Shown here piece by piece: positions 1-13,547 of a DNA stretch of 64,000 nucleotides. A model generated the notes under the pieces. That model did not search any database. It saw nothing but the letters and a program-made list of their open reading frames with translations, and was not told the origin of the DNA. The translations under genes were made by a program, and so were the position numbers. Source of the DNA: Cryptosporangium arvum DSM 44712 (GTDB taxonomy: Bacteria > Actinomycetota > Actinomycetes > Mycobacteriales > Cryptosporangiaceae); assembly GCF_000585375.1 (NCBI RefSeq), contig NZ_KK073874.1, forward strand, positions 2,728,001 to 2,792,000. The letters run 5' to 3'. Numbering within the stretch: the stretch's first letter is position 1; each line of letters begins with the position of its first letter.

Positions 1-813
1 GACGAGCTGCCACTCGAAGTCGACGTCCTCACCGATCGGCAGGTCGGTGTCGAACGTGCGGCCGCGCACCGCGTCCATGCGGACGAGCAGCGTCGCGGTG
101 GGCACGTACGGCACCAGCGCCCCGGCGCGGACCAGGCCGGGGGACGCTCCCATGTCGAGCGGGGAGTGCGCCGACTCGTACTCGCCGAGCCAGCCGCTCC
201 CGTCGCCGTGGCCGGTGACCCGGGGCGCGACCGCTGCGGCCTTCTCGTCGCCGAAGTAGGGGCGCAGCGCGTGCAGCCAGCCGTCCGGAACCACCACATC
301 GGAGTCGACGAGCGCCGCGAACGGGGTCTCGACCGCGGCCAGGCCGGTGTTGCGGGCGGCGGAGGGACCGCGGTTCCCGGCGTGCGACACCAGCCGGGCG
401 CCGAACCGGGCGGCGATCCCGGCGATCCCGGCGTCGGCCGGCGACCCGTCGTCGACGACCAGGACCGGGACCCCGGGGGCGGTGCGCCGGACCGCTTCCA
501 GGCAGCGGGCCAGCTCCACCGGCCGGGCGTAGGTCGGGACGACGACCGTGACGTCCTCGACGTTCTCCGCGGGGGCCCAGACGGGGTGGGCCATCCCGGC
601 GTCGAGGAGGCGGCGGGCGAGCGCGCGGTGCGAGTCCGCGGCCCCGACCGCGGCGCCGTCGCGCCACTCCCGGATCAGCGGTACCGCCGCTTCCGCCACC
701 CGCAGCAGCCGCCCCGGTGAACCCCCGAGCAGGGTCCGGCCGTCCGGGCTGATCCGGAGCGCCTCGTCCAGCCGGAGCCGGATCCCGGCCGGCGCGAGCT
801 CCCGCCCGCTCAC
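1..813 (-). CDS. mftF: Mycofactocin glycosyltransferase MftF, cut by the left window edge
   Basis: This is the first 271 codons of a family 2 glycosyltransferase; the gene continues beyond position 1. MftF adds glucose units to the mycofactocin core. The N-terminus holds RTLLGGSPGRLLR, as in MftF proteins, followed by a GT-A fold start (VTVVVPTYARP), the acceptor of nucleotide-sugar VLVVDDGSPAD, the DSDVVVPDGW region (DxD-like) and GEDVDFEWQLV, the acidic motif near the visible end. The GTG start overlaps the stop of mftR (GTGA at 810-813), so the two are one operon. The strand assignment rests on the conserved motifs; overlapping frames on the other strand are not real. The C-terminal half is not visible. 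Confidence 0.9.
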   Translation of the reverse strand, partial: MSGRELAPAGIRLRLDEALRISPDGRTLLGGSPGRLLRVAEAAVPLIREWRDGAAVGAADSHRALARRLLDAGMAHPVWAPAENVEDVTVVVPTYARPVELARCLEAVRRTAPGVPVLVVDDGSPADAGIAGIAARFGARLVSHAGNRGPSAARNTGLAAVETPFAALVDSDVVVPDGWLHALRPYFGDEKAAAVAPRVTGHGDGSGWLGEYESAHSPLDMGASPGLVRAGALVPYVPTATLLVRMDAVRGRTFDTDLPIGEDVDFEWQLV

Positions 814-1481
814 GGCGCGTCGGCCGGGGCGGTCCCGTGGTCGGTGAACCCGGCGGCGGTCTCGGAGCCGGCGCGCTTCTCGTGGCCGGCGAAGCCGGTG
901 GCGAGCTCGGCGATCGCCTCGTCGAGCAGCGGCTCGAGGTCGGCGTCCTCGTGGTGCAGCCAGTCGGTGTAGGCGGCGATCGCGCACCCCAGCGCGGCGT
1001 GCGCGACGAGCTGGGGGAGCAGGGCGCCGCTCGGCCGCCCGACCCGCACACCGACGAACTCCGCGATCACGTCCCGCCAGCCGGTGAACCGCAGCGTGGA
1101 GTGCGCGAACAGGCTCGGCACCCCCAGGATCAGCGCCATCCGGCGGCGGTGCAGCGCGACGTGGGCGGCGTCGACCCGGTTGAACGCGACCACCGCCTCG
1201 CGCAGCGCCGCCATCATCGGAACGCTCGGCGGGGTGGCGGCGAGGCGCTCACGTAGCCGGGACAATTCCGCGTCGAAATCCCCCCAGACAAGATCATTCT
1301 TGGACGTGTAGTAACGAAAGAACGTCCGACGGCTGATTCCCGCGGCCCCGGCGATCTCGTCGATCGTCGTCTCTTCGAACCCGCGGGTGGTGAAGAGTTC
1401 CAGCCCGATCCGCTCCAACTCGTCGTGCGACGTCGCCGGTGGCCGGCCCATTCGCACTGCTGGAACGGGGTCGTTCGCCAT
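810..1481 (-). CDS. mftR: TetR-family mycofactocin regulator MftR
   Basis: A 223-residue TetR-type repressor. The N-terminal helix-turn-helix lies at about residues 22-68 (IGLELFTTRGFEETTIDEIAGAAGISRRTFFRYYTSKNDL, split here only by its helices), and the rest is the helical ligand domain. It is transcribed away from mftA, and its stop overlaps the start of mftF. In mycobacteria MftR represses mft genes and responds to long-chain acyl-CoA; that is family knowledge and the ligand here is inferred. A purine-rich Shine-Dalgarno (aggaagaggag on the minus strand) precedes the ATG. The 60-odd-base region towards mftA is the expected operator region. Confidence 0.9.
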   Translation of the reverse strand: MANDPVPAVRMGRPPATSHDELERIGLELFTTRGFEETTIDEIAGAAGISRRTFFRYYTSKNDLVWGDFDAELSRLRERLAATPPSVPMMAALREAVVAFNRVDAAHVALHRRRMALILGVPSLFAHSTLRFTGWRDVIAEFVGVRVGRPSGALLPQLVAHAALGCAIAAYTDWLHHEDADLEPLLDEAIAELATGFAGHEKRAGSETAAGFTDHGTAPADAP

Positions 1482-1585
1482 CTCCTCTTCCTTTCTGCAT
1501 CCAGTGTCATTAGTGTTGTGCCTGTTCCGGAGATGATGCCCGCTGTTTCAACGGCGAGCTCCCCATCAGCGCAAAGGAGCTTTTC
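1482..1585. promoter_or_regulatory. Divergent mftR/mftA promoter region
   Basis: This 104-base gap separates the divergent mftR and mftA genes and should hold both promoters. A direct repeat AGTGT-N4-AGTGT lies at 1503-1516. No convincing long palindrome or sigma-A hexamer pair could be picked out by eye. The mftA ribosome site is AAAGGAG at 1573-1579, six bases before its ATG. Confidence 0.45.
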
Positions 1586-1702
1586 ATGCCTGTCGAGACT
1601 CTGGAGAGCACGGCTGCGACCGAGACTGTCGAGGTCGACCTGGTGGAGGAAGACCTGCTGGTCGAGGACGTTTCGATCGACGGTATGTGCGGCGTCTACT
1701 GA
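1586..1702 (+). CDS. mftA: Mycofactocin precursor peptide MftA
   Basis: A 38-residue peptide that ends in IDGMCGVY, the invariant C-terminal tail of MftA precursors. The last two residues, Val and Tyr, are the ones cross-linked by MftC and become the redox core. The leader is strongly acidic (runs such as DLVEEDLLVED), as expected for recognition by the RRE protein MftB. A clear Shine-Dalgarno (AAAGGAG) precedes the ATG, and mftB begins 12 bases after the stop. It is short, so automated gene calling may miss it, but the tail makes the call near certain. Confidence 0.97.
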   Translation: MPVETLESTAATETVEVDLVEEDLLVEDVSIDGMCGVY

Positions 1703-1714
1703 GCCGGTGACGTC

Positions 1715-2029
1715 ATGACGGCCGTACCGGAAAGCCCTGCGGCCCTGACGAGCTTCGACCTGGACCGCGCCTGGGGGGTCCACCCCTCGGTCGCGGTCCG
1801 GCCGGAGCCGTTCGGCGCCCTGCTCTACCACTTCGGCACCCGCCGGCTCTCCTTCCTCAAGGACCCGACGCTGCTCTCCGTGGTCACCACGCTGGCGGAC
1901 CACCCGTCGGCCCGCGCCGCCCTCGCGGCGAGCGGCGCCGACGTGACGCAGCAGCGACGCCTCGCCCGTGCGCTGGCGACGCTCGCCTCGACCGAGATGA
2001 TCACCGAACGGACGGAGGCGTCCCGATGA
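1715..2029 (+). CDS. mftB: Mycofactocin RRE chaperone MftB
   Basis: A 104-residue PqqD-like protein. MftB binds the MftA leader and presents it to the radical SAM enzyme MftC. The sequence has the family features AWGVHPSVAVRPEPFGALLYH (shown as its first 20 or so residues), then FGTRRLSFLK, a predicted winged-helix/beta RRE fold. It starts 12 bases after mftA and its stop overlaps the mftC start (ATGA at 2026), indicating translational coupling. Length and position both match MftB of known clusters. Confidence 0.95.
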   Translation: MTAVPESPAALTSFDLDRAWGVHPSVAVRPEPFGALLYHFGTRRLSFLKDPTLLSVVTTLADHPSARAALAASGADVTQQRRLARALATLASTEMITERTEASR

Positions 2030-3297
2030 CGGCACCGACAGCCACCCGGCTGATCGACCACTTCAAGCTCGGCCTCGACGCGCCGATCTGCCTGACCTGG
2101 GAACTGACCTACGCGTGCAACCTGTCCTGCGTCCACTGCCTGTCCAGCTCCGGACGCCGTGACCCGCGCGAGCTGACGACCGCGGAAGCCAAGGCCGTCA
2201 TCGACGAGCTCGAGCGGATGCAGGTCTTCTACGTGAACATCGGCGGTGGCGAGCCCACCGTCCGCTCCGACTTCTGGGAGCTCGTCGACTACGCGACCGA
2301 GCACAAGGTCGGCGTCAAGTTCTCCACCAACGGCGTGAAGATCTCGCCCGAGGTGGCCGAGCGCCTGGCCGCCAGCGACTACGTCGACGTGCAGATCTCA
2401 CTCGACGGCGCGACCGCCGAGGTCAACGACCACGTGCGGGGCCCGGGTTCGTACGCGACGGCCGTGCGCGCGATGGAGAACCTGAAGAACGCCGGGTTCA
2501 GCGGCTTCAAGCTCTCCGTGGTCTGCACCCGGCAGAACGTCGGCCAGCTCGACGAGTTCAAGGCGATCGCCGACAGGTACGGCGCCCAGCTGCGCCTCAC
2601 CCGGCTGCGTCCCTCGGGGCGCGGCGCGGACGTATGGGACGAGCTGCACCTCCTCCCGCACCAGCAGAAGGAGCTCTACGACTGGCTGGTCGCGCACGGC
2701 GAGCAGGTGCTCACCGGCGACTCGTTCTTCCACCTCGCCGCGTTCGGCGACGCGCTGCCCGGTCTGAACCTCTGCGGCGCGGGTCGGGTCGTCTGCCTGA
2801 TCGACCCGGTCGGCGACGTCTACGCCTGCCCGTTCGCGATCCACGAGAACTTCCTCGCCGGGTCGGTGCGTGAGCCCGGGGGCTTCCAGGGGGTGTGGCG
2901 CGACTCGGAGCTGTTCCGGGAGCTGCGTCAGCCGCAGACCGGGGGTGCCTGCCAGTCGTGCCAGCACTACGACGCCTGCCAGGGCGGGTGCATGGCGGCG
3001 AAGTTCTTCACCGGGCTTCCGCTGGACGGGCCCGACCCCGAGTGCGTCCAGGGGTACGGCGAGTCCGCACTGGCCGGGGTGGTGGCGGGGTCGGCCCCGA
3101 AGCCGTCGCTGGACCACTCGCACCGCACCACGCGCAAGTCCCGTCCGGTGGCTCTGACGCTGAGCCGCCGCCCACCCGCGCTGCTGCCTCAATCGGCTCC
3201 CCCCGGGCGGGCGTGCGACGAGAGCCCGCTCTCCGGGTTCGAGCTGATCGGTCCGTCGTCGGGCTCCGGGTGCGCGTCCGGCGCCTGCGGCTGCTGA
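2026..3297 (+). CDS. mftC: Mycofactocin radical SAM maturase MftC
   Basis: A 423-residue radical SAM/SPASM enzyme. MftC oxidatively decarboxylates the C-terminal Tyr of MftA and then joins it to the preceding Val. The SAM cluster motif CNLSCVHC (C31, C35, C38) follows WELTYA, and GGGEP near residue 67-71 is the SAM-binding motif. A SPASM domain with auxiliary Fe-S cysteines lies at about residues 250-335 (CGAG, YACPF, ACQSCQHYDACQGGC, DPEC). The C-terminus ends with CDESPLSGFELIG and then a short Cys/Gly tail, GCASGACGC, which I do not recall as a constant family feature. Start overlaps mftB; the next gene begins 4 bases after the stop. Confidence 0.96.
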   Translation: MTAPTATRLIDHFKLGLDAPICLTWELTYACNLSCVHCLSSSGRRDPRELTTAEAKAVIDELERMQVFYVNIGGGEPTVRSDFWELVDYATEHKVGVKFSTNGVKISPEVAERLAASDYVDVQISLDGATAEVNDHVRGPGSYATAVRAMENLKNAGFSGFKLSVVCTRQNVGQLDEFKAIADRYGAQLRLTRLRPSGRGADVWDELHLLPHQQKELYDWLVAHGEQVLTGDSFFHLAAFGDALPGLNLCGAGRVVCLIDPVGDVYACPFAIHENFLAGSVREPGGFQGVWRDSELFRELRQPQTGGACQSCQHYDACQGGCMAAKFFTGLPLDGPDPECVQGYGESALAGVVAGSAPKPSLDHSHRTTRKSRPVALTLSRRPPALLPQSAPPGRACDESPLSGFELIGPSSGSGCASGACGC

Positions 3298-3301
3298 CGC
3301 C

Positions 3302-5260
3302 ATGAGAACCCCGGCGACCGGCTCGCTTCTCACCGAAGCGGTGCCGGTCGCCGGTGCCCTGGCCCCGTCCCGGGTCGTGTTCGGTCCGCACGAGACCAAC
3401 CTGGCCCGGGACCGGGCGCCGGGCGAGGAGGCCAGCGCGTACTACGCCGCCCGGGCCGCGGGCGGCGCGGGTGTGGTGATCACCGAGATCGCGTCGGTGA
3501 CACCGGACGACTGGCCGTACGAGCGGGCGCCGCTGGCCGGCTCCTGCGGCCCGGGCTGGGCCGCGATCGCGGACGCCTGCCGCCCGTACGGCACGGTCGT
3601 GCTGGCCGGGCTCGGGCACGCGGGCCTGCAGGGGTCGAGCGCGTACTCGCAGTCGGTGCTGTGGGGGCCGTCGCCGGTCGCCGACGTCGTGACGCGGGAG
3701 CTGCCCGCCGTCCTGGAGCCGCCGCAGATCGACGCGGTGATCGACGGGTTCGCCGCGGCCGCGGCGCTTGCCGTGTCGTCCGGGCTCGCCGGGGTCGAGC
3801 TCAACGCGGGCACGTATTCGCTGGTGCGTCAGTTCCTCTCCGGCCTCACGAACACGCGGTCGGACGCGTACGGCGTGGACCGTTGCCGTTTCCTGCGTGA
3901 CCTGGTCGCCTCGGTCCGGGCCGCCGTCGGCCCGGACCGAGTGCTCGCCCTGCGCCTGTCCGCGGACGAGGACGCCCCGTGGGCGGGGATCACGCCGTCG
4001 CTCGCCGCTTCGGTGGTCGACGAGGTGGCCGGGAGCATCGACCTGCTGACCGTCGTGCGCGGCGGGCACTACTCGTCGACGCGGTACCGGCCGGTCGCGC
4101 GGGTCGAGCCCGGGTTCAACCGGGAGCTGTGCCGCGCGCTGCGGACCGTCGCGGCCGGGAGGGTGCCGGTGGTGCTGCAGGGCAGCGTCGTCTCCCCGGT
4201 GATGGCCCAGGAGGCGCTGGACTCCGGGGTCGCCGACCTGGTCGAGATGACACGGGCGCAGATCGCCGAGCCGCGGCTCGTCGCGCTGGTGCGGGCCGGT
4301 TCGGCCGACCGGATCCGGCCGTGCCTGCTGTGCAACCAGGCGTGCCAGGTGCGCGACGTCCGCAACCCGGTGGTGAGCTGCGTGGTCGAGCCCGGCGCCG
4401 GCCACGAGACGCGCGAACCCGCGGCGGCGGATCCCGGCTCCGGTGAGGTGCTCGTCGTCGGGGGCGGGCCCGCGGGGCTCGAAGCGGCGCGGGTACTGGC
4501 GTTACGGGGGCACCGGGTGCGGCTGGCCGAGCGCTCCGGGGTGCTCGGCGGTGCGCTCCGCGCCGCCGCCACCGGCCCCGGCCGGGAGCGCCTGGCCGCG
4601 TTCACCCACTGGCAGGAGGCCGAGTGCCGGGCGCTCGGCGTACGCATCGCGCTGCACACCGAGGTGACCCCGGCCGACGTCGCCGCGGCCGAGACCCCGG
4701 TGGTCCTGGCCACCGGCTCGCGCTCGGCCACCCCGGCCCGCGCCGAAACCTGGCGCACGGGCGGAGCGGTGGTCGTGGACGTCCTGGACCTGCTGGCCGG
4801 GAACGCGGAGGTGCCACCGGGAGCCGTCCTCGTGGACGACCCCACCGGGGGGCCGATCGGCGTCGGGGTCGCCGAGCTGCTCGCCGGGCGCGGCCACGCC
4901 GTGCACGTCGTCACGCCGGACCCGGTCCTCGGCGCGCGCACCCCCGAACTGGCCGACGCCAACTTCCGGCTCGAGGCGCTCGGCGTCCACCGTGAACTGC
5001 GTACCCGCATCCGCGCCGTGGGCGACGGCGAGGCCGAGCTCGAGCACGTCTGGACCGGTGCGCGGCGCGTGCTCGCCTGCGCCGCGGTCGTCGACTGCGG
5101 CCACCGCCTTCCCGACGACACGTTCGCCGCGCTCGACGACGTCCCCCGCGCCGGCGACTGCGTCGCTCCCCGCACCCTGCTCGAAGCCGTCCTGGAAGGC
5201 CGCCGGGCGGCCACCCGAACTCGCGGGGCGTCAGCCCCGCGTCTCAGCACGGCGCGGTGA
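3302..5260 (+). CDS. Mycofactocin-system FadH/OYE-type oxidoreductase 1
   Basis: A 652-residue flavoprotein with the 2,4-dienoyl-CoA reductase architecture. An N-terminal FMN TIM barrel (about 15-330, with AYYAARAAGGAGVVITE and the substrate region FLSGLTNTRSDAYG) is followed by a 4Fe-4S motif C-x2-C-x3-C-x11-C (C341, C344, C348, C360) and an FAD/NAD(P) dinucleotide domain from about residue 382 (VVGGGPAG). Families of this type recur in mycofactocin loci and are presumed to pass electrons between a substrate or nicotinamide and MFT; the actual substrate is unknown. It begins 4 bases after mftC, so it is co-transcribed with the maturation genes. No mftD stands in its usual place. Confidence 0.85.
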   Translation: MRTPATGSLLTEAVPVAGALAPSRVVFGPHETNLARDRAPGEEASAYYAARAAGGAGVVITEIASVTPDDWPYERAPLAGSCGPGWAAIADACRPYGTVVLAGLGHAGLQGSSAYSQSVLWGPSPVADVVTRELPAVLEPPQIDAVIDGFAAAAALAVSSGLAGVELNAGTYSLVRQFLSGLTNTRSDAYGVDRCRFLRDLVASVRAAVGPDRVLALRLSADEDAPWAGITPSLAASVVDEVAGSIDLLTVVRGGHYSSTRYRPVARVEPGFNRELCRALRTVAAGRVPVVLQGSVVSPVMAQEALDSGVADLVEMTRAQIAEPRLVALVRAGSADRIRPCLLCNQACQVRDVRNPVVSCVVEPGAGHETREPAAADPGSGEVLVVGGGPAGLEAARVLALRGHRVRLAERSGVLGGALRAAATGPGRERLAAFTHWQEAECRALGVRIALHTEVTPADVAAAETPVVLATGSRSATPARAETWRTGGAVVVDVLDLLAGNAEVPPGAVLVDDPTGGPIGVGVAELLAGRGHAVHVVTPDPVLGARTPELADANFRLEALGVHRELRTRIRAVGDGEAELEHVWTGARRVLACAAVVDCGHRLPDDTFAALDDVPRAGDCVAPRTLLEAVLEGRRAATRTRGASAPRLSTAR

Positions 5261-5320
5261 CATCGATTACCGCGCGGTGCGTCCCCCAGAAATACGCAAT
5301 ACAGATAGAGGAGGCGCGCG

Positions 5321-6133
5321 ATGGGGCGTGTCGAAGGAAAAGTCGCATTCATCACCGGTGCCGCGCGCGGACAGGGTCGTAGCCACGCGATCCGGCTCGC
5401 CGAGGAGGGCGCCGACATCATCGCGGTGGACCTGTGCGCGCCGGTCCGCAACGTGCCGTACCCGGCGGCCACGCCGGACGACCTCGCCGAGACCGTCAAG
5501 CTCGTCGAGGCCCTGGACCGCCGCATCATCGCGACCCAGGTCGACACCCGCGACCGCAGCGCGTTGAAGACCGCGATCGACGCCGGCGTCGCCGAGCTCG
5601 GCAAGCTCGACATCGTCGTCGCGAACGCCGGTATCTGCATCATCGGCGGCTGGGACCAGATCACGCCCGAGGTCTGGCAGGACACGCTCGACGTCAACCT
5701 GACCGGCACCTGGAACACCGTCCAGCTCGCGGCGCCGCACTTGGTCGCCAACGGTGGCGGCTCGGTCGTCATGACCAGCTCCGCCGCCGGCCTCAAGGGG
5801 CTGCCGTTCCTGACGCCGTACGTCGCCAGCAAGTTCGGTGTCACCGGCCTCGGCAAGGCGTTCGCGCACGAGCTGGCCGAGCACAACATCCGGGTCAACA
5901 CCCTGCACCCGACCGGCGTGGAGACCCCGATGGGCAGCAGTGAGGGCACGTCGGCGTTCGGCGAGCTGCTGGCCGCCCACCCCACGCTGGGCGGCATGCT
6001 CGCCAACAGCCTGCCGATCGAGACCACGCAGCCGGTCGACCAGAGCAACGCGGTGCTGTTCCTCGCGTCCGACGAAGCGCGCTACATCACCGCGCTGAGC
6101 ATGACCGTCGACGCCGGCAACACCCAGTACTAA
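5321..6133 (+). CDS. Mycofactocin-dependent SDR oxidoreductase (first copy)
   Basis: A 270-residue short-chain dehydrogenase. The nucleotide motif TGAARGQGRSHA at residues 12-23 is typical of the SDR subfamily that holds NAD(H) without exchange and relies on mycofactocin as external electron carrier. The family insertion after the second strand (VRNVPYPAATPDDLAETVKL) is present. Catalytic Ser-Tyr-Lys are visible: SS near 149, Y167 and K171 (YVASK). A GAGG ribosome site precedes the ATG. It likely oxidises an alcohol; the substrate cannot be read from sequence. The next gene, 14 bases on, is a paralogue. Confidence 0.88.
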   Translation: MGRVEGKVAFITGAARGQGRSHAIRLAEEGADIIAVDLCAPVRNVPYPAATPDDLAETVKLVEALDRRIIATQVDTRDRSALKTAIDAGVAELGKLDIVVANAGICIIGGWDQITPEVWQDTLDVNLTGTWNTVQLAAPHLVANGGGSVVMTSSAAGLKGLPFLTPYVASKFGVTGLGKAFAHELAEHNIRVNTLHPTGVETPMGSSEGTSAFGELLAAHPTLGGMLANSLPIETTQPVDQSNAVLFLASDEARYITALSMTVDAGNTQY

Positions 6134-6147
6134 AGGAGGAACGACGA

Positions 6148-6987
6148 ATGGGACGAGTCGAGGGAAAAGTAGCCTTCATCACCGGCGCCGCGCGCGGCCA
6201 GGGGCGTAGCCACGCGCTCCGGTTGGCGCAGGAGGGCGCGGACATCATCGCGATCGACGTCGCCGAGGACATCCCCAGCGTCACCCGGTTCTACCCGGGC
6301 GCCACCGAGGCCGACCTCGCCGAGACCGTCGCCCAGGTCGAGGCGCTCGACCGGCGGATCGTCGCCAGCAAGGTCGACGTCCGCGACTACGACGCGCTCA
6401 AGGGCGCACTCGACACCGGGGTCGCCGAACTCGGCCACGTCGACATCGTGAGCGCGAACGCGGGCATCTTCCTGCACAGCGACAAGACGCACGAGGTCAG
6501 CGACAGTGACTGGGACGACGTGCTGGACATCAACCTCAAAGGCGTCTGGCACACGGTCAAGGCCGCGATCCCGCACCTGATCGCGCAGGGCACCGGCGGT
6601 TCGATCGTGCTCACCAGCTCGACCGCGGGCATCAAGGGCACGCCGAACGTCGCGCCGTACACCGCGAGCAAGCACGGCGTCGTCGGCCTGATGAAGACGC
6701 TCGCGCTGGAGCTGGCCGAGCACAACATCCGCGTCAACAGCATCCACCCGACCGGGGTGGCGACGGACATGATCCTCAACGAGACCACGTTCAAGCTGTT
6801 CCTGCCGGACGAGGAGCACCCGACGCGCGAGCAGGCCGCGCCGGTGTTCCAGAGCACGAACGCGCTGCCGGTGCCGTGGGTCGAGCCCATCGACATCAGC
6901 AACGCGCTGCTGTTCCTCGCGTCCGACGAGGCCCGGTACGTCACCGGCCTCGAGCTGAAGGTCGACGCGGGTTACACGACGAAGTAA
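6148..6987 (+). CDS. Mycofactocin-dependent SDR oxidoreductase (second copy)
   Basis: A 279-residue SDR closely related to the preceding gene. Its first 20 residues are nearly the same, with TGAARGQGRSHA at 12-23, followed by the subfamily insertion (DIPSVTRFYPGATEADLAET). The active site has SS near 153, Y171 and K175 (YTASK). A strong AAAGGAGG site sits just before the ATG, in the 14-base gap. Tandem duplication with divergence in the substrate loop (residues 195-240) suggests two alcohols of different shape. Role in MFT-coupled oxidation is by subfamily; the substrate is unknown. Confidence 0.88.
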   Translation: MGRVEGKVAFITGAARGQGRSHALRLAQEGADIIAIDVAEDIPSVTRFYPGATEADLAETVAQVEALDRRIVASKVDVRDYDALKGALDTGVAELGHVDIVSANAGIFLHSDKTHEVSDSDWDDVLDINLKGVWHTVKAAIPHLIAQGTGGSIVLTSSTAGIKGTPNVAPYTASKHGVVGLMKTLALELAEHNIRVNSIHPTGVATDMILNETTFKLFLPDEEHPTREQAAPVFQSTNALPVPWVEPIDISNALLFLASDEARYVTGLELKVDAGYTTK

Positions 6988-7041
6988 CACCCTCGTGGCC
7001 GGCCCTGGCGAAGGGCCGGCCACCCACACCGAGGAAGCTGA

Positions 7042-7974
7042 ATGACCACATACGCCACCCCTGACGTGGTCGCGGCCCGAGGCCGGGTCGGAGCCCGGCT
7101 GGTCGGCCGGGAACGCGAACTCGACCTCGTGCTCGCCGCCGTCGCGGCGGGCCGGGACATCGTCCTGGAGGGTCCGCCCGGCACCAGCAAGACGACGATG
7201 CTCACCGCGATCACGGCCGAGTGGGGCATCCCGCTGCTGTTCGTCGAGGGCAACGCCGACCTGACCCCGGCCAAGCTGGTCGGCCACCACAACCCGGCGC
7301 GTGTGCTCACGGAGGACTACAGCGAGGACAACTTCGTCCCCGGCCCGCTCTCCGAGGCGATGCGCCAGGGCGGCTTCCTCTACATCGAGGAGTTCAACCG
7401 CGCCCCCGACGACACGCTGAACACCCTGCTCACCGCGATGGCCGACCGGCGGCTGTCGATTCCGCGGGCGGGCACGATCGAGGCGCTGCCGACGTTCCGG
7501 ATCATCGCGTCGATGAACCCGTACGACAACGTGGGCACCACGCGGCTGTCCTCGAGCGTCCACGACCGGCTCTGCCGACTGGCCGTCGACTACCAGGACG
7601 CATCGGCCGAAGAGGGGATCGTCGCGCTGCGTACCGGTCTGGCCGCCGGTGCGGACCTGGTGGGTGACGCGGTGACCGTCACCAGGGCCACCCGGGAACA
7701 CCCGGACGTGCGCCAGGGCTCGAGCGTCCGCGGTGCGATCGACACCGCGCTCGTCGCGGTGCAACTGGGTGCGCTGCGCGGGCTGACGGTCACCGGTCCG
7801 GTGACGCGCGCGTCCACCGACCCGTACGCCCAGCTCTTCCTGGACGCGATGCTGGTGGCGCTGTCCGGCCGCATCCACCTCGACGAAGCCGCCGACACCA
7901 CACCGGAACGGGTGCTCCGGGAGATCTGGGAGGACCGGTTCATCCTCCAGCCGTCGGCGGCCCGGCCCGGTTGA
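7042..7974 (+). CDS. MoxR-family AAA+ ATPase
   Basis: A 310-residue AAA+ ATPase of the MoxR/CoxD type. It shows Walker A GPPGTSKT (residues 44-51), Walker B with FLYIEEFNR at about 112-120, and sensor 1 IIASMNP. MoxR proteins work with VWA-domain partners to insert metals or remodel client enzymes, as in methanol dehydrogenase and CO dehydrogenase maturation. Here the VWA partner follows directly in the same reading frame. Placement between MFT-dependent SDRs and a 4Fe-4S FadH/OYE enzyme makes one of these the likely client; this is inference. Starts 54 bases after the SDR stop, behind a GAGGAAG site. Confidence 0.9.
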   Translation: MTTYATPDVVAARGRVGARLVGRERELDLVLAAVAAGRDIVLEGPPGTSKTTMLTAITAEWGIPLLFVEGNADLTPAKLVGHHNPARVLTEDYSEDNFVPGPLSEAMRQGGFLYIEEFNRAPDDTLNTLLTAMADRRLSIPRAGTIEALPTFRIIASMNPYDNVGTTRLSSSVHDRLCRLAVDYQDASAEEGIVALRTGLAAGADLVGDAVTVTRATREHPDVRQGSSVRGAIDTALVAVQLGALRGLTVTGPVTRASTDPYAQLFLDAMLVALSGRIHLDEAADTTPERVLREIWEDRFILQPSAARPG

Positions 7975-8115
7975 AGAGAAGTCGCGGCGGAGTCGCCGGT
8001 CACGCGGAAGCGGGACGGTGCCGGCCGGGGCAAGCCGCTCAAGCGCAAACCCAAGCAGCTCGACGAGGAGCCGACCGAGTTCCGGCCGTCACGCTCGTCG
8101 TCCGGGTCGGGACGG

Positions 8116-8985
8116 GTGCTGACCGGGCGCGGCAAGCGCGACCGGAAGGGGCCGCAACTGCCGGGTTCGGTGGCGCCCGGGACCACCGACGAAGGGTCGG
8201 ACCTCGTCACGCTGGACCCGTCCGGCACCGGGCCGGATCCGGCGGTGCGGGCCCGGGCCCGGCAGATCGCGGCGCGGCTGTCGCTGCGGCGTCCGCGCCG
8301 GGACCCGCGGCGGCACCGGGGCGTCGGTGACCTGGCGTCGCTGCCGTACCGCGACGGCTCCGCCGACCTGGACCTGGACCGCACGCTCGACGCGCTGATC
8401 GGCGACCCCGGCGGGGCCGACGACGCGTCCGGCGTCGACCGGCGCATCATCGTGCGCGAACGGGTGCGGACCCGGCGGTCGGTCGTGCTCGTCGTCGACG
8501 TGTCGGGGTCGATGAAGGGTGAGCGCATCCGGACCGCCGCGGCCACCGTGGGCGCGGTCGCCGGTGAACTCGCCGACGACGACCTCGCGGTGATCGCGTT
8601 CTGGTCGGACGCGGCCGTGCTGCATCCGCTCGGCCGCCCGGCGCGCCCGGTCGACCTGCTCGATCTGCTGCTGTCCGTGCCGGCGAGGGGACTGACGAAC
8701 GTCGGGTTCCCGCTGCAGCTGGCCGCACGCGAGCTGGCTCGGGTACCGGCCCGGGACGCCCGGGTGCTGCTGCTCTCGGACTGCGTGCACAACGCCGGGC
8801 CCGATCCCCGGCCGACGGCCGCCCGGCTGCCGCGGCTGGACGTGCTGCTCGACGTCGGCACGCCGCCGGGGGAGCACGACCTGGAGCTCGGCCGGGACCT
8901 GGCGCACGCCGGACGCGGCCGGCTCCGCCCGATCCACTCCCACCGGGACGTCGCGCCCGCGCTGACGTCGATCTTCGGGTCCTAG
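8116..8985 (+). CDS. VWA-domain protein, partner of MoxR; start uncertain
   Basis: From the GTG at 8116 this is 289 residues. The von Willebrand A domain occupies the C-terminal half; the MIDAS motif DVSGS is at residues 128-132 and LLLSDC supplies a later MIDAS segment. Upstream the same frame stays open and coding-like back to 7975 (Lys/Arg-rich residues such as RGKPLKRKPKQLDEEP) but has no ATG, GTG or TTG. The frame then meets the MoxR stop TGA at 7972-7974. A TTG at 7971 overlapping that stop lies in another frame. So the natural start may be lost to an indel in 7971-8040, or the TGA may be read through. The protein resembles CoxE-like MoxR partners. The next gene starts 1 base after the stop. 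Confidence 0.82.
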   Translation: MLTGRGKRDRKGPQLPGSVAPGTTDEGSDLVTLDPSGTGPDPAVRARARQIAARLSLRRPRRDPRRHRGVGDLASLPYRDGSADLDLDRTLDALIGDPGGADDASGVDRRIIVRERVRTRRSVVLVVDVSGSMKGERIRTAAATVGAVAGELADDDLAVIAFWSDAAVLHPLGRPARPVDLLDLLLSVPARGLTNVGFPLQLAARELARVPARDARVLLLSDCVHNAGPDPRPTAARLPRLDVLLDVGTPPGEHDLELGRDLAHAGRGRLRPIHSHRDVAPALTSIFGS

Positions 8986-8986
8986 C

Positions 8987-10885
8987 GTGCCGACGCTCGC
9001 GACCGGGTTGCGGCTGGGTCGGCTGACCCTCCGCAACCGGGTCGTGTTCTCGGCGCACCTGACCAACTTCGCGGTCGACGGGGCGGTGACCGATCAGCAC
9101 GTCGCCTACTACGCGGCCCGGGCGGCGGGCGGGGCCGGGCTGATCGTCACCGAGGAGCACACCGTGCACCCCTCGGACCGGCCCTACCAGAAGATGATCC
9201 GGGGCTACCGGCGCCAGCCGGGCTACCGGGCGCTGACCACCGCCGTGCATACCGCCGGTGCCGCGGTGTTCGCGCAGCTCAACCACAACGGTGGACAGTC
9301 GTCGGGGCTGTACACACGGCAGCCGGTACTCGCGCCGAGCCCCGTACCGGACGCTCTGTTCCGCGAGGTACCAGCCGCGCTGACGACCACGCAGATCGCC
9401 GAGATCGTGGCCGGCTACGCGGCGACGGCGGCACGGTGCGTCGAGGGCGGGTTCGACGGGGTCGAGCTGCAGGCGTCGCACTCGTCGCTGATCCGGCAGT
9501 TCCTGTCCGGCGCGACGAACCACCGCACCGACGTCTACCGGGAGCGGTTCCGCTTCCTGGGCGAGGTGATCGCGGCGGTGCGTGCGGCGATCGGGCCGTC
9601 GCCGGTGCTGGGTGTGCGGCTCGGCGGCGACGAGATGATCGAGGCCGGGATCACCGTGGACGAGGCGGTGGCGACGGCCCGGGCGGTCGAGGCGACCGGT
9701 CAGGTGGACTACCTGAACACCTCGATCGGGGTGGCGACCGAGACGCTCTTCCTGATCCAGGCGAGCATGCGGGTGCCGCCGCGGTACGCACTGCACATCC
9801 CGGCCGCGCTGCGGGCGGCGGTGTCGCTTCCGGTCGTCGGCGTGGGTCGGTTCAAGAGCCTGGCCCAGGCCGAGAAGGCGTTGCAGGAGGGCGCCGCGGA
9901 CCTGATCGGCGCGGTGCGGGCGCAGATCGCGGACCCGGACTGGGCGCGCGGGGGAGCGCGGACCTGCCTGTCGTGCAACCAGGAGTGCGTGGGGCGGGTC
10001 GGCTTCAACCGCTGGATCGGCTGCGTCGTGAACCCCGCCGCCGGCCACGAGGCCGTGCCCGTGGCGGCGCCCCGGCGTCGGCAGCGGGTGGTGGTCGTCG
10101 GGGGTGGGCCGGCCGGGATGCGTGCGGCGGTCACCGCGGCCGAGCGTGGGCACGCGGTGACGCTGTACGAGCGGTCGGAGCAGCTCGGCGGCGTGGTGCC
10201 GCTGGCCGCGTCGGTGCCGAGCCGGGCCGAGTTCGCCGAGCTGACCCGGTCGCTGGCGGCGGCGGTCTCCCGGGCGGGGGTCGCGGTGCGTCTCGGTGTC
10301 GCGGCGACCGCGGAGACCCTGCTGACGGTGGCCCCGGACGCGGTCGTGCTCGCGACCGGCGCGCGGCCGGTGCGGCCCCCGTGGGGCGCTTCGCCCCGGG
10401 TGGTCGACGTCCGGCTGGTGCTGTCGGGGCGCGTGGCGCCGTCCGGGAACGTGCTCGTCTACGACGAACTCGGGTTCCACGAGGGCACGTCGGTGGCCGA
10501 ACTGCTCGCCGACCGGGGGTGCCGGGTGGAGATCGCCACGCCCGGGATGATCGTCGGGCAGGACCTGGGCCCGACGCTGGACCTGGAGCTCTGGACGATC
10601 GCGGCGCACGCGCGCGGAGTGGTGTGCACGCCCGACGTCACGGTGTCCGCGGCCGAGGACGAGGGAGAGCGGCTGCGTGTCGTGCTCGCGCACCACCCGA
10701 CCGGGACGCGGCGCACCCGGACCGTGGACTGGGTCGTGACGTCCGTGCACCCGCGCGCCGACGACACGCTCTGGCACGAACTGCGCGGCGCGCCCTTCCC
10801 GGTGCACCGGATCGGCGACTGCCTGGCCCCTCGCCGCGCCCACGCCGCCGTCCTGGAGGGCGAGCGCGTGGCGGCGGCGCTGTGA
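8987..10885 (+). CDS. Mycofactocin-system FadH/OYE-type oxidoreductase 2
   Basis: A 632-residue paralogue of the enzyme after mftC, with the same order: FMN barrel (RLTLRNRVVFSAHLTNFA near the start, AYYAARAAGGAGLIVTEEH), 4Fe-4S motif C327, C330, C334 and C346 (C-x2-C-x3-C-x11-C), then a dinucleotide-binding domain (VVVVGGGPAG at about 369). The barrel region HTVHPSDRPYQ matches the family. It starts with GTG one base after the VWA stop and its own stop overlaps the next start (GTGA), so it is tightly coupled to its neighbours. Electron partner and substrate are unknown; an ETF-like domain gene follows at once. Confidence 0.86.
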   Translation: MPTLATGLRLGRLTLRNRVVFSAHLTNFAVDGAVTDQHVAYYAARAAGGAGLIVTEEHTVHPSDRPYQKMIRGYRRQPGYRALTTAVHTAGAAVFAQLNHNGGQSSGLYTRQPVLAPSPVPDALFREVPAALTTTQIAEIVAGYAATAARCVEGGFDGVELQASHSSLIRQFLSGATNHRTDVYRERFRFLGEVIAAVRAAIGPSPVLGVRLGGDEMIEAGITVDEAVATARAVEATGQVDYLNTSIGVATETLFLIQASMRVPPRYALHIPAALRAAVSLPVVGVGRFKSLAQAEKALQEGAADLIGAVRAQIADPDWARGGARTCLSCNQECVGRVGFNRWIGCVVNPAAGHEAVPVAAPRRRQRVVVVGGGPAGMRAAVTAAERGHAVTLYERSEQLGGVVPLAASVPSRAEFAELTRSLAAAVSRAGVAVRLGVAATAETLLTVAPDAVVLATGARPVRPPWGASPRVVDVRLVLSGRVAPSGNVLVYDELGFHEGTSVAELLADRGCRVEIATPGMIVGQDLGPTLDLELWTIAAHARGVVCTPDVTVSAAEDEGERLRVVLAHHPTGTRRTRTVDWVVTSVHPRADDTLWHELRGAPFPVHRIGDCLAPRRAHAAVLEGERVAAAL

Positions 10886-11433
10886 GCCTCGGCCGGGCCC
10901 GGGTGGTGGTCGGCGCCGGAGGCGGGCTGCTGGGCGGCTCACCCGGCGTGGTGCGTGCTCTGCTCGCGGACGTGGCCGGCGCGCTCGGGGGAGAGGTGGG
11001 CGCGACGCGTGCGCTCGTGGACGCGGGCTGGTTCGGGCCCGAGCGGCTCGTCGGTGTCTCCGGCGTCACGATCGGCCCGGTGCTCTACCTCGGGTTCGGG
11101 GTGGCCGGAACCGTGTTCCACGAGATCGGCCACCCGGCCCACGTGATCGGCGTGAACACCGACCCGGGTGCCCCGCTGCTGGTCCGCGCCACGCTGCCGC
11201 TGTGCACCGACGCCACCGCGCTCCTCACCGAACTGGCCCCGCGTCTGCGCGGCCGCACCTGGGCGGACATCCGCTCGCCCGACGTCGACCGGAGCCGACC
11301 GGGCGGAACCGTGCCCGAGCGGTTGCGGACGCTGACCGGGGTGCCCGCCGGGCCGGTACGGCCCGTCCCACCGCTGAGCGCGGAGCAGGCCGCCACCGCG
11401 CTCCTGGCCTACCTGGAAGAATGCTGCGGATGA
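10882..11433 (+). CDS. Stand-alone ETF alpha C-terminal FAD-domain protein
   Basis: A 183-residue protein that aligns by eye with only the FAD-binding C-terminal domain of electron transfer flavoprotein alpha. Recognisable pieces are GAGGGLLG, EVGATRALVDAGW, VGVSGVTIGPVLYLGFGVAGT and VIGVNTDPGAPLL. The usual N-terminal ETF-alpha domain and a beta subunit are missing from this locus. GTG start overlaps the upstream flavoenzyme stop, and its own stop overlaps the mftE start. ETF proteins carry electrons from dehydrogenases to the quinone pool. Here it probably takes electrons from the adjacent OYE-type flavoenzyme or MFT chemistry; this is inference. Canonical HLAGM is replaced by FHEIG. Confidence 0.82.
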   Translation: MSLGRARVVVGAGGGLLGGSPGVVRALLADVAGALGGEVGATRALVDAGWFGPERLVGVSGVTIGPVLYLGFGVAGTVFHEIGHPAHVIGVNTDPGAPLLVRATLPLCTDATALLTELAPRLRGRTWADIRSPDVDRSRPGGTVPERLRTLTGVPAGPVRPVPPLSAEQAATALLAYLEECCG

Positions 11434-12107
11434 GCGAACTGGCCGACCGCGTGTGGCCGGAGATCACCGGCGCGGGTGTGCTGGCGATCCCGGTGGGGTC
11501 GACGGAGCAGCACGGCCCTCATCTCCCGTTCTCCACCGACACCGACATCGCCGTCGCGCTCGCCCGGGCGCTGGCCGCGCGCCGCGCCGACGTGCTGGTC
11601 GCGCCGGCGATGCCGTACGGGTCGTCGGGGGAGCACCAGGGTTTCCCCGGCACCCTCTCGATCGGACCGTCGGCCATCGAGACCGTGCTGCTCGAACTCG
11701 GACGCTCGGCCACCGAGACGTTCGGGCGCATCCTGTTCGTCTCCGGCCACGGCGGCAACGCGATACCGGTCAACCGGGCCGTCCGGCGGCTGCGCAGCGA
11801 GGGCCGCGACGCGCTGGCCTGGGCGCCGCGCTGGCGCGGGGACGCCCACGCGGGGCGCACCGAGACGTCGGTGCAGCTCGCGCTGGACCCCTCCCGGGTG
11901 CGGCTGGACCGGGCCGCCCCGGGCAACACCGCAGCGCTGAGCGAACTGCTGCCGGTGATGCGTGAGCAGGGGCTCCGGCCGGTCACCGAGAACGGCGTGC
12001 TGGGCGATCCGTCCGGCGCCGACGCCGACGAGGGCGCGCGCTTGCTCACCGAGGCCACCGACGACCTGGCGACGACGGTGTCCCGGTGGCTGGGGGAAGA
12101 CGCGTAG
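11430..12107 (+). CDS. mftE: Mycofactocin peptidase MftE (creatininase family)
   Basis: A 225-residue creatininase-type metallopeptidase. MftE cleaves the modified MftA to free the Val-Tyr-derived core. The metal-site motif STEQHGPHLPFSTDTD (E26, H28, D37) and the SGHGGN segment are present, as is HAGRTETS further on. The ATG at 11430 overlaps the stop of the ETF-like gene (ATGA); an in-frame ATG three codons earlier is a less likely start. Length is close to other MftE proteins. In other clusters mftE follows mftD; here it is separated from mftC by seven genes and mftD is not seen. Confidence 0.95.
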   Translation: MSELADRVWPEITGAGVLAIPVGSTEQHGPHLPFSTDTDIAVALARALAARRADVLVAPAMPYGSSGEHQGFPGTLSIGPSAIETVLLELGRSATETFGRILFVSGHGGNAIPVNRAVRRLRSEGRDALAWAPRWRGDAHAGRTETSVQLALDPSRVRLDRAAPGNTAALSELLPVMREQGLRPVTENGVLGDPSGADADEGARLLTEATDDLATTVSRWLGEDA

Positions 12108-12134
12108 CAACCTTTCGGCCCACGGCGGCGTACT
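12107..12134 (+). promoter_or_regulatory. ECF-type promoter upstream of the SigE-family sigma gene
   Basis: GCAACC at 12107-12112 and CGTACT at 12129-12134 are spaced by exactly 16 bases. This matches the -35/-10 pattern (AAC and CGT cores) of actinobacterial ECF promoters. Transcription would start near 12141, giving a short leader that contains GGAAGGAG (12146-12153) before the GTG at 12160. The simplest reading is positive autoregulation of the sigma gene. The -35 element overlaps the last base of the mftE stop codon. Confidence 0.7.
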
Positions 12135-12159
12135 TGGTGGGCGACGGAAGGAGTTGCCC

Positions 12160-12687
12160 GTGCGCGGGAAACCGCAAGCCTTCGCCGGACTGGAAGAGTT
12201 CGTCGCCGACCGTGGTGACGCTCTGCTGGCGACGGCGATCCTCCTGGCCGGCGGCCGGGACGCCGGCCAGGACCTGCTCCAGGCCGCCATCGAGCGCGCG
12301 ATGCGCCGCTGGCACACGATCGACGGCGACCCCGAGGGGTACGTGCGCCGGATCCTGTACCACCTCGCGGTCGACAGCTGGCGACGCCGGAGCCGGCGTC
12401 CCGAGGTGCTCACCGCGGTGGACACCGAGGCGGTCCCGGACGCGACCGCGACGCTCGACCTGCGTGACGCGCTGATCCGCGCGCTGGCGCAACTGCCGCC
12501 GAAGCAGCGGGCGGTGCTGGTGCTCCGGTTCTTCGAGCACCTGACCGAGGCCGAGGCCGCCGAGCGGCTGGGTTGCTCGATCGGCACGGTGAAGTCCGCG
12601 ACGTCACGCGGGCTGGCCCGGTTACGAGAACTCACGAACGACTGGGCCGCCGAGCGGCCCCGCACCACGAACGGAGCACGGGCATGA
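12160..12687 (+). CDS. SigE-family ECF RNA polymerase sigma factor
   Basis: A 175-residue sigma factor of the short Streptomyces SigE-like family. Region 2 lies at about 10-80 (FVADRGDALLATAILLAGGRD, split by helices; RRWHTIDGDPEGYVRRIL) and region 4 at about 110-165 (LPPKQRAVLVLRFFEHLTEAEAA, then GCSIGTVKSATSRGL, the recognition helix). The GTG at 12160 is chosen because GGAAGGAG lies six bases upstream; TTG at 12154 is possible. The next gene overlaps by ATGA, so sigma and a membrane partner are co-translated. Which stress it senses is not visible. Confidence 0.88.
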   Translation: MRGKPQAFAGLEEFVADRGDALLATAILLAGGRDAGQDLLQAAIERAMRRWHTIDGDPEGYVRRILYHLAVDSWRRRSRRPEVLTAVDTEAVPDATATLDLRDALIRALAQLPPKQRAVLVLRFFEHLTEAEAAERLGCSIGTVKSATSRGLARLRELTNDWAAERPRTTNGARA

Positions 12688-13547
12688 GGCTGGACGAGGA
12701 GCTGTCGTTCGCGATGCGGTCCCGGGTCGCGGGCGAGCGGCTGGACGGTGCGGCGCTGGTGGCGGCGGCCGAGCGGGCCCACCGCCGGCGGCGCACCGCG
12801 CGCCGGGGCGCGGTGTTCGCGGCGGGAGGTCTCACGCTGGCCGCGGCGGTGACCGGGGTCGTCGCGCTGTCCGGAACCCCGACGGCGGTGACGCCGACCG
12901 CACCGCCGCCGGCCGAGGTGGCGGTGCGGCCGGTCAGCTACGTGGTGGCGCGGGCCAGCGACGCGATCGACCGGAACAAGTCGAAGGTCACGTACGTGCG
13001 GACGCACACCACCGCGAACGGCGAGACCCGCGACGAGGAGGAGTGGTGGGACGGCGCGACCGGCGACTGGCGCCGCCACGGCGACGGCGTCGACGCGGCG
13101 ATCACGACCGACGGGACACGGGACAAGTTCCTGGTGATCGACCACACCACCCGGACCTGGTGGGCGGTCACGTACCCGGCGACCGACCAGCAGGGGAGCT
13201 GGTCGAAGCAGGACGTCCAGGCCGCGCTGCAGGAGAAGGGGAAGTTCGTCCTGGTCGGCGAGGAGTCGCTGGACGGCCGCGCGACCCTGCACCTGCGAGC
13301 CGACCCGGCCAAGCGCGACCGGACGGAGCTCGACCTCTGGGTCGACGCGTCGACCTACGACCTGGTGCGGACGGTGAGCCGGTTGAAGCCGTCGGGAACT
13401 CCGGACGTGATCGTGAGCACGTACGACTACACGTTCGTTCCGCGCTCGGCCGAGGAGCTGGAGCGGTTCCGGCTGGAGCCACCCGCCGACTACCGCCGCG
13501 ACCAGTCGGACGCCCCCCAGAAGTCCGGCGTCGAACCGGCGAAGTAG
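12684..13547 (+). CDS. Membrane-anchored partner of the ECF sigma factor (hypothetical)
   Basis: A 287-residue protein with a cytoplasmic N-terminus (about 1-45), one membrane segment at about 46-65 (AVFAAGGLTLAAAVTGVVAL) and an outside domain. The layout is that of sigma-linked membrane proteins such as the CU044_5270-like family found again at 59343-62238. The outside part has repeated beta-type phrases (KVTYVRTHTTANGET, LHLRADPAK, TELDLWVDAST) that recall LolA-like lipoprotein-binding folds. Start overlaps the sigma gene by ATGA. A role as anti-sigma or sensor is inferred from position and topology; no zinc motif is seen. Confidence 0.75.
   Translation: MRLDEELSFAMRSRVAGERLDGAALVAAAERAHRRRRTARRGAVFAAGGLTLAAAVTGVVALSGTPTAVTPTAPPPAEVAVRPVSYVVARASDAIDRNKSKVTYVRTHTTANGETRDEEEWWDGATGDWRRHGDGVDAAITTDGTRDKFLVIDHTTRTWWAVTYPATDQQGSWSKQDVQAALQEKGKFVLVGEESLDGRATLHLRADPAKRDRTELDLWVDASTYDLVRTVSRLKPSGTPDVIVSTYDYTFVPRSAEELERFRLEPPADYRRDQSDAPQKSGVEPAK

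Follow-up and report, generated by a model that had tools for sequence, protein, structure and literature searches.

A mycofactocin locus of Cryptosporangium arvum and a candidate link between its OYE2 flavoenzyme family and electron transfer flavoproteins

Introduction

In the described mycofactocin systems the peptide core AHDP is oxidised by MftD, the premycofactocin synthase, and the reduced cofactor is re-oxidised by MftG, the mycofactocin dehydrogenase. According to a 2025 study (PMC11778925), the reaction of MftD on AHDP is a deamination, and about 25% of the genomes that encode MftC lack MftG; whether other enzymes complement it is left open there. The MftD family, for its part, was found in most but not all mycofactocin genomes by the founding paper of 2011 (PMC3023750). 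Here we analyse a mycofactocin locus of Cryptosporangium arvum DSM 44712 that carries, between mftC and mftE, two flavoenzymes of the FadH/old yellow enzyme (OYE) type, OYE1 and OYE2, and a stand-alone domain of the alpha subunit (EtfA) of an electron transfer flavoprotein (ETF). It lies at the left end of the window, by which we mean the whole stretch of 64,000 bases that was analysed (bases 2728001-2792000 of a 9.196 Mb single-contig genome; GC content 69.5-77.6% in 2-kb steps). An earlier annotation of this window, hereafter the original prediction, had seen neither mftD nor mftG and had proposed that the flavoenzymes may replace or supplement the steps of these two enzymes.

Trimethylamine dehydrogenase (TMADH) is an OYE-type 4Fe-4S enzyme whose oxidative deamination feeds ETF. 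Both C. arvum flavoenzymes exceed the curated cut-offs of the mycofactocin-system FadH/OYE families 1 and 2 (TIGR03996 and TIGR03997) and lie within a mycofactocin cluster. The database naming of these families rests on neighbourhood, and a selective link between OYE2 and ETF is stated in none of the sources that we consulted. The main text of the founding paper does not mention OYE, old yellow, dienoyl or TIGR03996. In the literature searched, nothing joined mycofactocin with electron transfer flavoprotein or FixABCX, or mftD with ETF, and old yellow enzyme and mycofactocin appeared together only in a coumarin study.

The explanation that we favour, to which we assign as a whole a probability of roughly 0.6, is that OYE2 serves an ETF-linked electron route in relatives of this locus, and that C. 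arvum has a complete OYE1/OYE2-type mycofactocin operon, within a genus whose electron plumbing has been switched. As far as our searches go, no earlier report describes the contrast between OYE2 plus ETF/FixCX and MftD/MftG, which is open to testing.

Results

The ETF set and MftD in related loci

Families were called with NCBIfam models at their curated cut-offs, and with Pfam for the EtfA domain, MoxR and VWA. A genome collection was scanned with an OYE1 alignment and the best 80 of 363 OYE1 relatives were kept with their flanks. A phylum sample of 396 genomes held seven over the OYE1 cut-off, C. arvum itself included; the other six were used together with G322 (556 bits in one fragment, below the cut-off of 627.9). 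A family sample of five genomes contained four from the genus, again counting C. arvum. The genomes scored were thus 91 with OYE1 (80 loci, seven from the phylum sample, C. arvum and three genus members), and 90 were scorable for MftD and EtfA once L143/G477, in which EtfA is cut by a contig edge, had been left out. EtfA was called over cut-off in 40 of 57 and 8 of 22 genomes, and in 12 further ones by local sequence alone. The search for MftG covered 57 of the 91 genomes (with model TIGR03970, not TIGR04542 or NF038210) and that for mft_etfB covered 20. In part of the comparative searches matches were taken down to E-values of 1e-90 for MftD and 1e-85 for MftG, weaker ones falling outside the comparison.

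Searches by tblastn with the window proteins revealed two layouts. The first, in Rhodococcus and Prescottella, is mftA-B-C-D-OYE1-(SDR)-OYE2-...-E-F-G, where SDR is a short-chain dehydrogenase/reductase; the second, in other loci, is mftA-B-C-OYE1-(SDR)-OYE2-EtfA-...-mftE/mftF. Some Pseudonocardia, Aldersonia, Geodermatophilus and Frankia loci carry locally neither mftD nor EtfA. The stretch 3′ of EtfA, in two loci, encodes a FixC-like protein and mft_etfB, plus a FixX-like protein in one of them, and the order EtfA-FixC-FixX-EtfB was found in 47 of the 49 EtfA-bearing loci among the 80, the other two (L066 and L103) stopping near EtfA or inside FixC. Among six phylum-sample loci the same order recurs in L051, L053 and L055 and the set is split in L050; the stretches fetched for L052 and L054 are without the ETF set, and EtfA lies on other contigs of these genomes. 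Such relatives encode, in order, all four components of the FixABCX/EtfABCX system (7koe). Six Frankia and Pseudofrankia loci (L073, L076, L077, L086, L091 and L096) show mftR-OYE1-OYE2 with no mftABC within the fetched flanks, and two of these, L076 and L096, also carry EtfA-FixC-FixX-EtfB.

The distribution of MftD and MftG is nearly the reverse of that of the ETF set. MftD is over cut-off in 8 of the 60 genomes with full mft-EtfA and in 29 of the 30 without it, and MftG in 2 of 40 and 14 of 17, respectively; one further EtfA-less genome has an MftG match of 382 bits at a contig edge, below the cut-off. Conversely, mft_etfB exceeds its cut-off in all eight EtfA-bearing genomes tested and in none of 12 EtfA-less ones. 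In three genomes (G091, G188 and G252) no relative of MftD scores above 28.1 bits. One of them, G252, is 97% complete in 7 contigs and has mftA, B, C, E and F at L053, so that, provided this genome makes premycofactocin, its peptide core must be oxidised by an enzyme other than MftD. Saccharopolyspora ipomoeae (G414, L122) encodes two MftD-family proteins over cut-off (691 and 642 bits) beside full mft-EtfA.

Constraint on OYE2 follows the ETF set

Absence of the ETF set goes with relaxation of OYE2, and presence of MftD does not relax it. We counted, among alignment columns conserved in 90% or more of the EtfA-bearing rows, those lost in EtfA-less rows, which are 40 of 378 in OYE2 and 7 of 237 in OYE1 (54 and 28 rows each); the same measure gives 6 of 221 for MftC, with fewer rows (43 and 22). 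We also compared the distances of OYE2 and OYE1 to the EtfA-bearing, MftD-less set. The median OYE2/OYE1 ratio is 0.568 in taxa with EtfA and no MftD (n=47), 0.561 in taxa with both (n=7) and 0.839 in taxa without EtfA (n=28). Five EtfA-less lineages have clade means of 0.76 to 1.08, the value among EtfA pairs being 0.567. All 54 EtfA taxa are exceeded by 19 of the 28 EtfA-less taxa; the remaining nine are Rhodococcus species. Relative to MftC, distances rise from EtfA pairs to EtfA-less pairs of different clades from 0.94 to 1.90 for OYE2 and from 1.66 to 2.14 for OYE1. In the relatives, OYE2 and the ETF set thus go together in gene content and order, in the families encoded, in co-occurrence and in constraint. 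Genomes with the ETF set keep OYE2 under tight constraint, also when MftD is encoded, and the constraint is looser in five ETF-less lineages. OYE2 therefore probably acts as the ETF-linked dehydrogenase in an alternative route for mycofactocin electrons.

The four Fe-S cysteines are present in both C. arvum proteins, which confirms that the window encodes two FadH/OYE enzymes with a predicted 4Fe-4S site, as first annotated. They are also found in all 83 aligned OYE2 rows and are incomplete in 20 of 90 aligned OYE1 rows. Rows of the latter kind include L085, L108, L111, L123, L129 and L081, and six OYE1 rows of the Pseudonocardia group have lost three of the cysteines. OYE1 was also considered as the partner of ETF, a role weakened by these incomplete rows and by how few of its conserved columns are lost without ETF. 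Beside the fourth Fe-S cysteine, C. arvum OYE2 is altered at residues 347 and 348, where all 54 EtfA-bearing rows have Ile-Glu; most Nocardiaceae keep the Glu of this pair. The matching region of TMADH is, we assume, the exit to ETF.

OYE2 among known enzymes and a candidate electron route

In ETF-type relatives OYE2 would work like the 4Fe-4S amine dehydrogenases of its superfamily, oxidising mycofactocin species at its FMN and passing the electrons through the 4Fe-4S centre to EtfAB, then to FixC/FixX and finally to quinone. The substrate could be reduced mycofactocin, as for MftG, or the peptide core AHDP, as for MftD, or both; we infer this, as well as the direction of electron flow. OYE2 with ETF is a plausible substitute because the reactions of TMADH, which feeds ETF, and of MftD are both deaminations. 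If OYE2 has this role, it could explain how those genomes do without MftG, and perhaps how they do without MftD: OYE2 with mft-EtfAB and FixC/FixX would be the candidates for the missing MftG, in hosts that include named isolates such as Saccharopolyspora and Amycolatopsis.

Several observations weigh against such a route. The 80 loci were picked by OYE1 similarity and are not a random sample, and the OYE2 comparison includes a single taxon of the Geodermatophilaceae lineage. In the Nocardiaceae, 9 of 17 taxa overlap the range of OYE2/OYE1 ratios of ETF taxa, and OYE1 and OYE2 stand beside MftD and MftG without ETF, so they have some other role there. ETF and MftD occur together in eight genomes. 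Relatives of MftD below the cut-off are encoded in EtfA-bearing genomes (420 bits in G436, 334 in G407, 332 in G401 and 309 in G465), as are, in some, GMC proteins of about 300-367 bits that are sub-cut-off relatives of MftG; to judge by their scores, these proteins might be divergent true enzymes. Lastly, OYE2 scores closer to NCR/FadH-type reductases than to amine dehydrogenases, both over its whole length and in its C-terminal half, and could run in the reductive direction because of this preference. An independent-pairs test, described below, is a further point on this side.

The solved relatives of these proteins are NCR reductases, FadH (2,4-dienoyl-CoA reductase), histamine dehydrogenase and TMADH, with the top scores going to NCR and FadH; the TMADH entries include 1o94 and 1o95, presumably titled as a TMADH-ETF complex. 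These scores, together with the FadH/OYE name of the NCBIfam families, would fit a pair of FadH-like reductases, driven by pyridine nucleotides and acting on mycofactocin-linked unsaturated substrates, with the ETF set as an independent entry for electrons from other dehydrogenases. We consider this unlikely. Over the C-terminal half of OYE2, the alignment with FadH ends before the second nucleotide-binding segment, whereas those with NCR, 6l6j and histamine dehydrogenase pass through it. The second Rossmann segment of OYE2 has no GxGxxG motif in the eight rows inspected (OYE1 keeps a partial glycine motif), and the constraint on OYE2 tracks the ETF set. TMADH and histamine dehydrogenase are detectable relatives of OYE2, and ETF is encoded beside OYE2 in the ETF-type relatives, but overall scores place OYE2 no nearer to these two than to FadH and NCR. 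Sequence alone leaves OYE2 between reductase and dehydrogenase, and the AlphaFold model of OYE2 is poor around the Fe-S region (mean pLDDT 72.6, pTM 0.59).

The pattern of ETF and MftD could also reflect lineage history only, one gene set having been passed down in some clades and the other set in others, with no functional exchange between the two. An OYE1 tree built from 90 rows, 89 of them scored, shows a minimum of five changes of the EtfA state and seven of the MftD state. EtfA-less rows belong to the Nocardiaceae, two Geodermatophilaceae (Modestobacter and Geodermatophilus), Frankia sensu stricto, the Pseudonocardia group and the C. arvum genus, which falls inside a starred group of eight rows containing one ETF-bearing row. 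The independent-pairs test yielded three supported pairs (on average 0.0 in the same direction and 1.7 in the opposite one) and cannot reach significance; the association of EtfA with MftD falls short of it because there are only about five independent ETF switches, which is too few. This scarcity and the eight genomes with both sets speak for lineage history. Nevertheless, we regard it as an improbable account of the whole pattern: both ETF states occur within Pseudonocardia and within the Frankia group, the sole genome without MftD among the 30 ETF-less ones is a metagenome-assembled genome (MAG, G479) whose OYE1 contig measures 3.4 kb, and the functional signal is far stronger in OYE2 than in OYE1 or MftC. 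Two Pseudonocardia species that encode EtfA as well as MftD may represent intermediates.

MftD and MftG elsewhere in the C. arvum genome

Neither mftD nor mftG lies in the window, as originally noted, but a profile search of the whole genome, as that annotation had proposed, found both over their curated cut-offs on the same contig, ruling out a true absence. MftD is encoded at C1:3058671-3059825, 330 kb from the locus (TIGR03966, 688 bits against a cut-off of 470.85), and MftG at C1:5560603-5562192, 2.8 Mb away (TIGR03970, 423 bits against 387.45). No mycofactocin genes were found among the neighbours scanned beside either gene. C. arvum MftG is 39-42% identical to the GMC proteins of 10 Rhodococcus/Prescottella clusters, 38% to that of Aldersonia, 33-34% to those of two Pseudonocardia and 32% to another GMC protein of C. 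arvum. MftD is also encoded in the three other genus members examined. With MftD in the genus and MftG in C. arvum encoded elsewhere, core oxidation and cofactor re-oxidation can take the known route.

It is consequently very improbable that the OYE flavoenzymes perform the MftD and MftG steps in C. arvum. The idea draws on the absence of both genes from the window and on the position of OYE1, which follows mftC at the place that mftD holds in Rhodococcus-type clusters; it is opposed by the two genes found in the genome, by MftD in the other three genus members, and by the absence from C. arvum OYE2 of several residues that all 54 ETF-type rows share. Nor does OYE presence alone imply replacement, because OYE1 and OYE2 lie side by side with mftD inside the clusters of Rhodococcus and its kin, which rules out the use of OYE genes as a marker of replacement. 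Of the original prediction, what survives is a modified form: replacement is unneeded in C. arvum, where MftD and MftG are both encoded, unlinked to the locus, and it gains support in ETF-bearing relatives, from which both are largely missing and where the correlate is the ETF/FixCX set with OYE2 and not the OYE pair. In C. arvum, OYE1 and OYE2 probably form an accessory redox pair that is linked to mycofactocin and uses a different partner for its electrons.

A residual EtfA domain in the genus

The C. arvum EtfA domain has 183 residues and scores 113 bits with NF038209 against a cut-off of 240, covering profile positions 177-302 of 303, and is therefore not a full-length subunit. It is coupled by four-base start-stop overlaps to both OYE2 and mftE, and a stand-alone EtfA domain stands between these two genes in all four genus members. 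Among the mycofactocin ETF subunits (NF038209, mft_etfA; TIGR04503, mft_etfB) and FixC/FixX, it best matches NF038209 and holds the same place after OYE2. It differs from the full set in keeping only this C-terminal part, in a new C-terminal tail, and in having no mft_etfB over cut-off; neither full EtfA nor mft_etfB reached its cut-off in any of the four genus genomes. FixC and FixX are missing from the C. arvum locus, a genome-wide search of the genus for them not having been made. Common to the four members are the loss of the Gln of RQxGTTG, a two-residue deletion after the FAD-loop His and the new tail, which is conserved. The domain is predicted to adopt the EtfA C-terminal fold: the best AlphaFold model has a pLDDT of 82.9 (69-71 for the other four), and Foldseek matched it to EtfA chains of 4kpu, 5ol2 and 7koe (the last resembling it in chain B) at about 2 Å.

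Could this domain be functionless, decaying debris? Its dN/dS of 0.39-0.56 is the highest of the nine genes compared (0.11-0.43 for the others, with an overlap through mftB), and the conserved Gln and two residues of the FAD loop region are gone, as expected of a decaying gene. On the other hand, dN/dS is below 1 in all six pairs, the frame is open and coupled to both neighbours, the tail motif is conserved throughout the genus and the predicted fold is still ETF-alpha-like, although four of five models are of lower confidence. We find decay rather unlikely on this evidence, and the domain is read as remodelled rather than simply decaying. Under the favoured explanation, the genus would have lost the ETF route, and the EtfA FAD domain would persist as a separate, remodelled protein beside OYE2 and MoxR-VWA.

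The junction between MoxR and VWA

MoxR and VWA share one frame, interrupted by a TGA, in C. arvum, in the three other genus members (L150, L151 and L152) and in a Modestobacter MAG (L088). Ten bases around the TGA are identical in these five genomes, with AGA following the stop, a codon otherwise used once in the 3080 codons of eight operon genes. The identity of this block alone is not special, because a second identical ten-base block lies upstream inside the MoxR coding sequence. In C. arvum no ATG, GTG, TTG, CTG, ATT, ATC or ATA occurs after the TGA before codon 48 (47 codons, 7969-8115 region). Start-like codons come sooner in the other four genomes (from codon 9 to codon 29), and no such position is common to all five. 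The stretch before codon 48 nevertheless varies mainly at third codon positions, in the manner of coding sequence, with 10, 10 and 37 differences at positions 1, 2 and 3 when the non-overlapping pairs C. arvum/L151 and L150/L152 are summed; the other four pairs are less skewed, and dN/dS is 0.12-0.60 over all six. This suggests UGA read-through or a non-canonical start at the junction. No Rfam element was found near the MoxR stop (one match, E 1.7, 12.1 bits against a gathering score of 101), and no unusual fold downstream of it (z-score 1.14).

MoxR occurs in five and VWA in four of the six phylum-sample loci; among the 80 other loci MoxR was found only in L088. In L052, L053 and L054, MoxR-VWA lies near mftC, with an NDMA-dependent alcohol dehydrogenase (TIGR03989) directly beside MoxR. 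MoxR and VWA may be a maturation pair for mycofactocin-linked enzymes.

A broader scheme can be put forward tentatively, at somewhat less than even odds. Mycofactocin systems would have two types of plumbing, either MftD and MftG, or OYE2 with EtfA-FixC-FixX-EtfB, the latter making and/or re-oxidising mycofactocin and feeding quinone. The C. arvum genus would have switched from the second type to the first, with a fossil, re-used EtfA domain, and its MoxR and VWA would perhaps be joined by UGA read-through.

Layout of the locus and its surroundings

The locus is a known cluster type assembled from catalogued families (Table 1). Genes mftA, mftB, mftC, mftE and mftF all lie at one locus, making it a mycofactocin biosynthetic cluster, and the gene list first annotated (mftF, R, A, B, C and E plus seven inserted genes) is borne out by the NCBIfam and Pfam models. 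From mftC the order is OYE1, SDR, SDR, MoxR, VWA, OYE2, EtfA FAD domain and mftE, with mftR and mftF on the opposite strand. The other three genus members share the arrangement mftF-mftR / mftA-B-C-OYE1-(SDR-SDR)-MoxR-VWA-OYE2-EtfA domain-mftE, with mftA unmatched in L152; OYE1 is present in all four members and the SDR pair in two, C. arvum and one other.

Table 1. Features of the C. arvum mycofactocin locus (window positions)
Feature	Position	Strand	Support and remarks
mftF glycosyltransferase	1..810, runs past left edge to about window -596	-	TIGR03965 363 bits, cut-off 280
mftR TetR-type regulator	810..1481	-	TIGR03968 266.7 bits, cut-off 224.9
mftA precursor peptide	1586..1702	+	TIGR03969 46.7 bits; PF23709
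mftB chaperone	1715..2029	+	TIGR03967 111 bits
mftC radical SAM maturase	2026..3297	+	TIGR03962 660.7 bits
OYE1 FadH/OYE-type flavoenzyme	3302..5260	+	TIGR03996 850 bits, cut-off 628; four Fe-S Cys
Mycofactocin-type SDR 1	5321..6133	+	TIGR03971 370 bits
Mycofactocin-type SDR 2	6148..6987	+	TIGR03971 411 bits
MoxR-type AAA+ ATPase (AAA_5)	7042..7974, TGA stop 7972-7974	+	PF07728, PF07726
Ten-base block around MoxR stop	7969..7978	+	identical in 5/5 genomes
VWA protein (VWA_2), in frame with MoxR	7975..8985, mechanical start 8116	+	PF13519
OYE2 4Fe-4S FadH/OYE-type flavoenzyme	8987..10885	+	TIGR03997 860 bits, cut-off 793
Stand-alone EtfA C-terminal FAD domain, genus-specific tail of ~60 residues	10882..11433	+	PF00766 64 bits; NF038209 113 bits
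mftE peptidase	11430..12107	+	TIGR03964 297.5 bits

Start-stop overlaps had been described as tying most of these genes together. Of the nine junctions between mftB and mftE, only three have such overlaps, each of four bases (mftB/mftC, OYE2/EtfA and EtfA/mftE), and five have gaps of 1-60 bases. The ninth, MoxR/VWA, is undefined: the two genes share a frame, and the first GTG comes 141 bases after the TGA. The spacing is compatible with a single transcript.

No tRNAs were found in the window. Of the five genes scanned upstream of mftF, four are unrelated to mycofactocin (methionine-synthase-like, GGDEF, chemotaxis receptor and arabinose isomerase) and the fifth has no match. Directly 3′ of mftE lies a SigE-family ECF (extracytoplasmic function) sigma factor (mechanical open reading frame 11962-12687, with the profile match starting at residue 77). 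It is followed, within the region 11962-13547, by an open reading frame with a weak match to the CU044_5270 family, under the cut-off.

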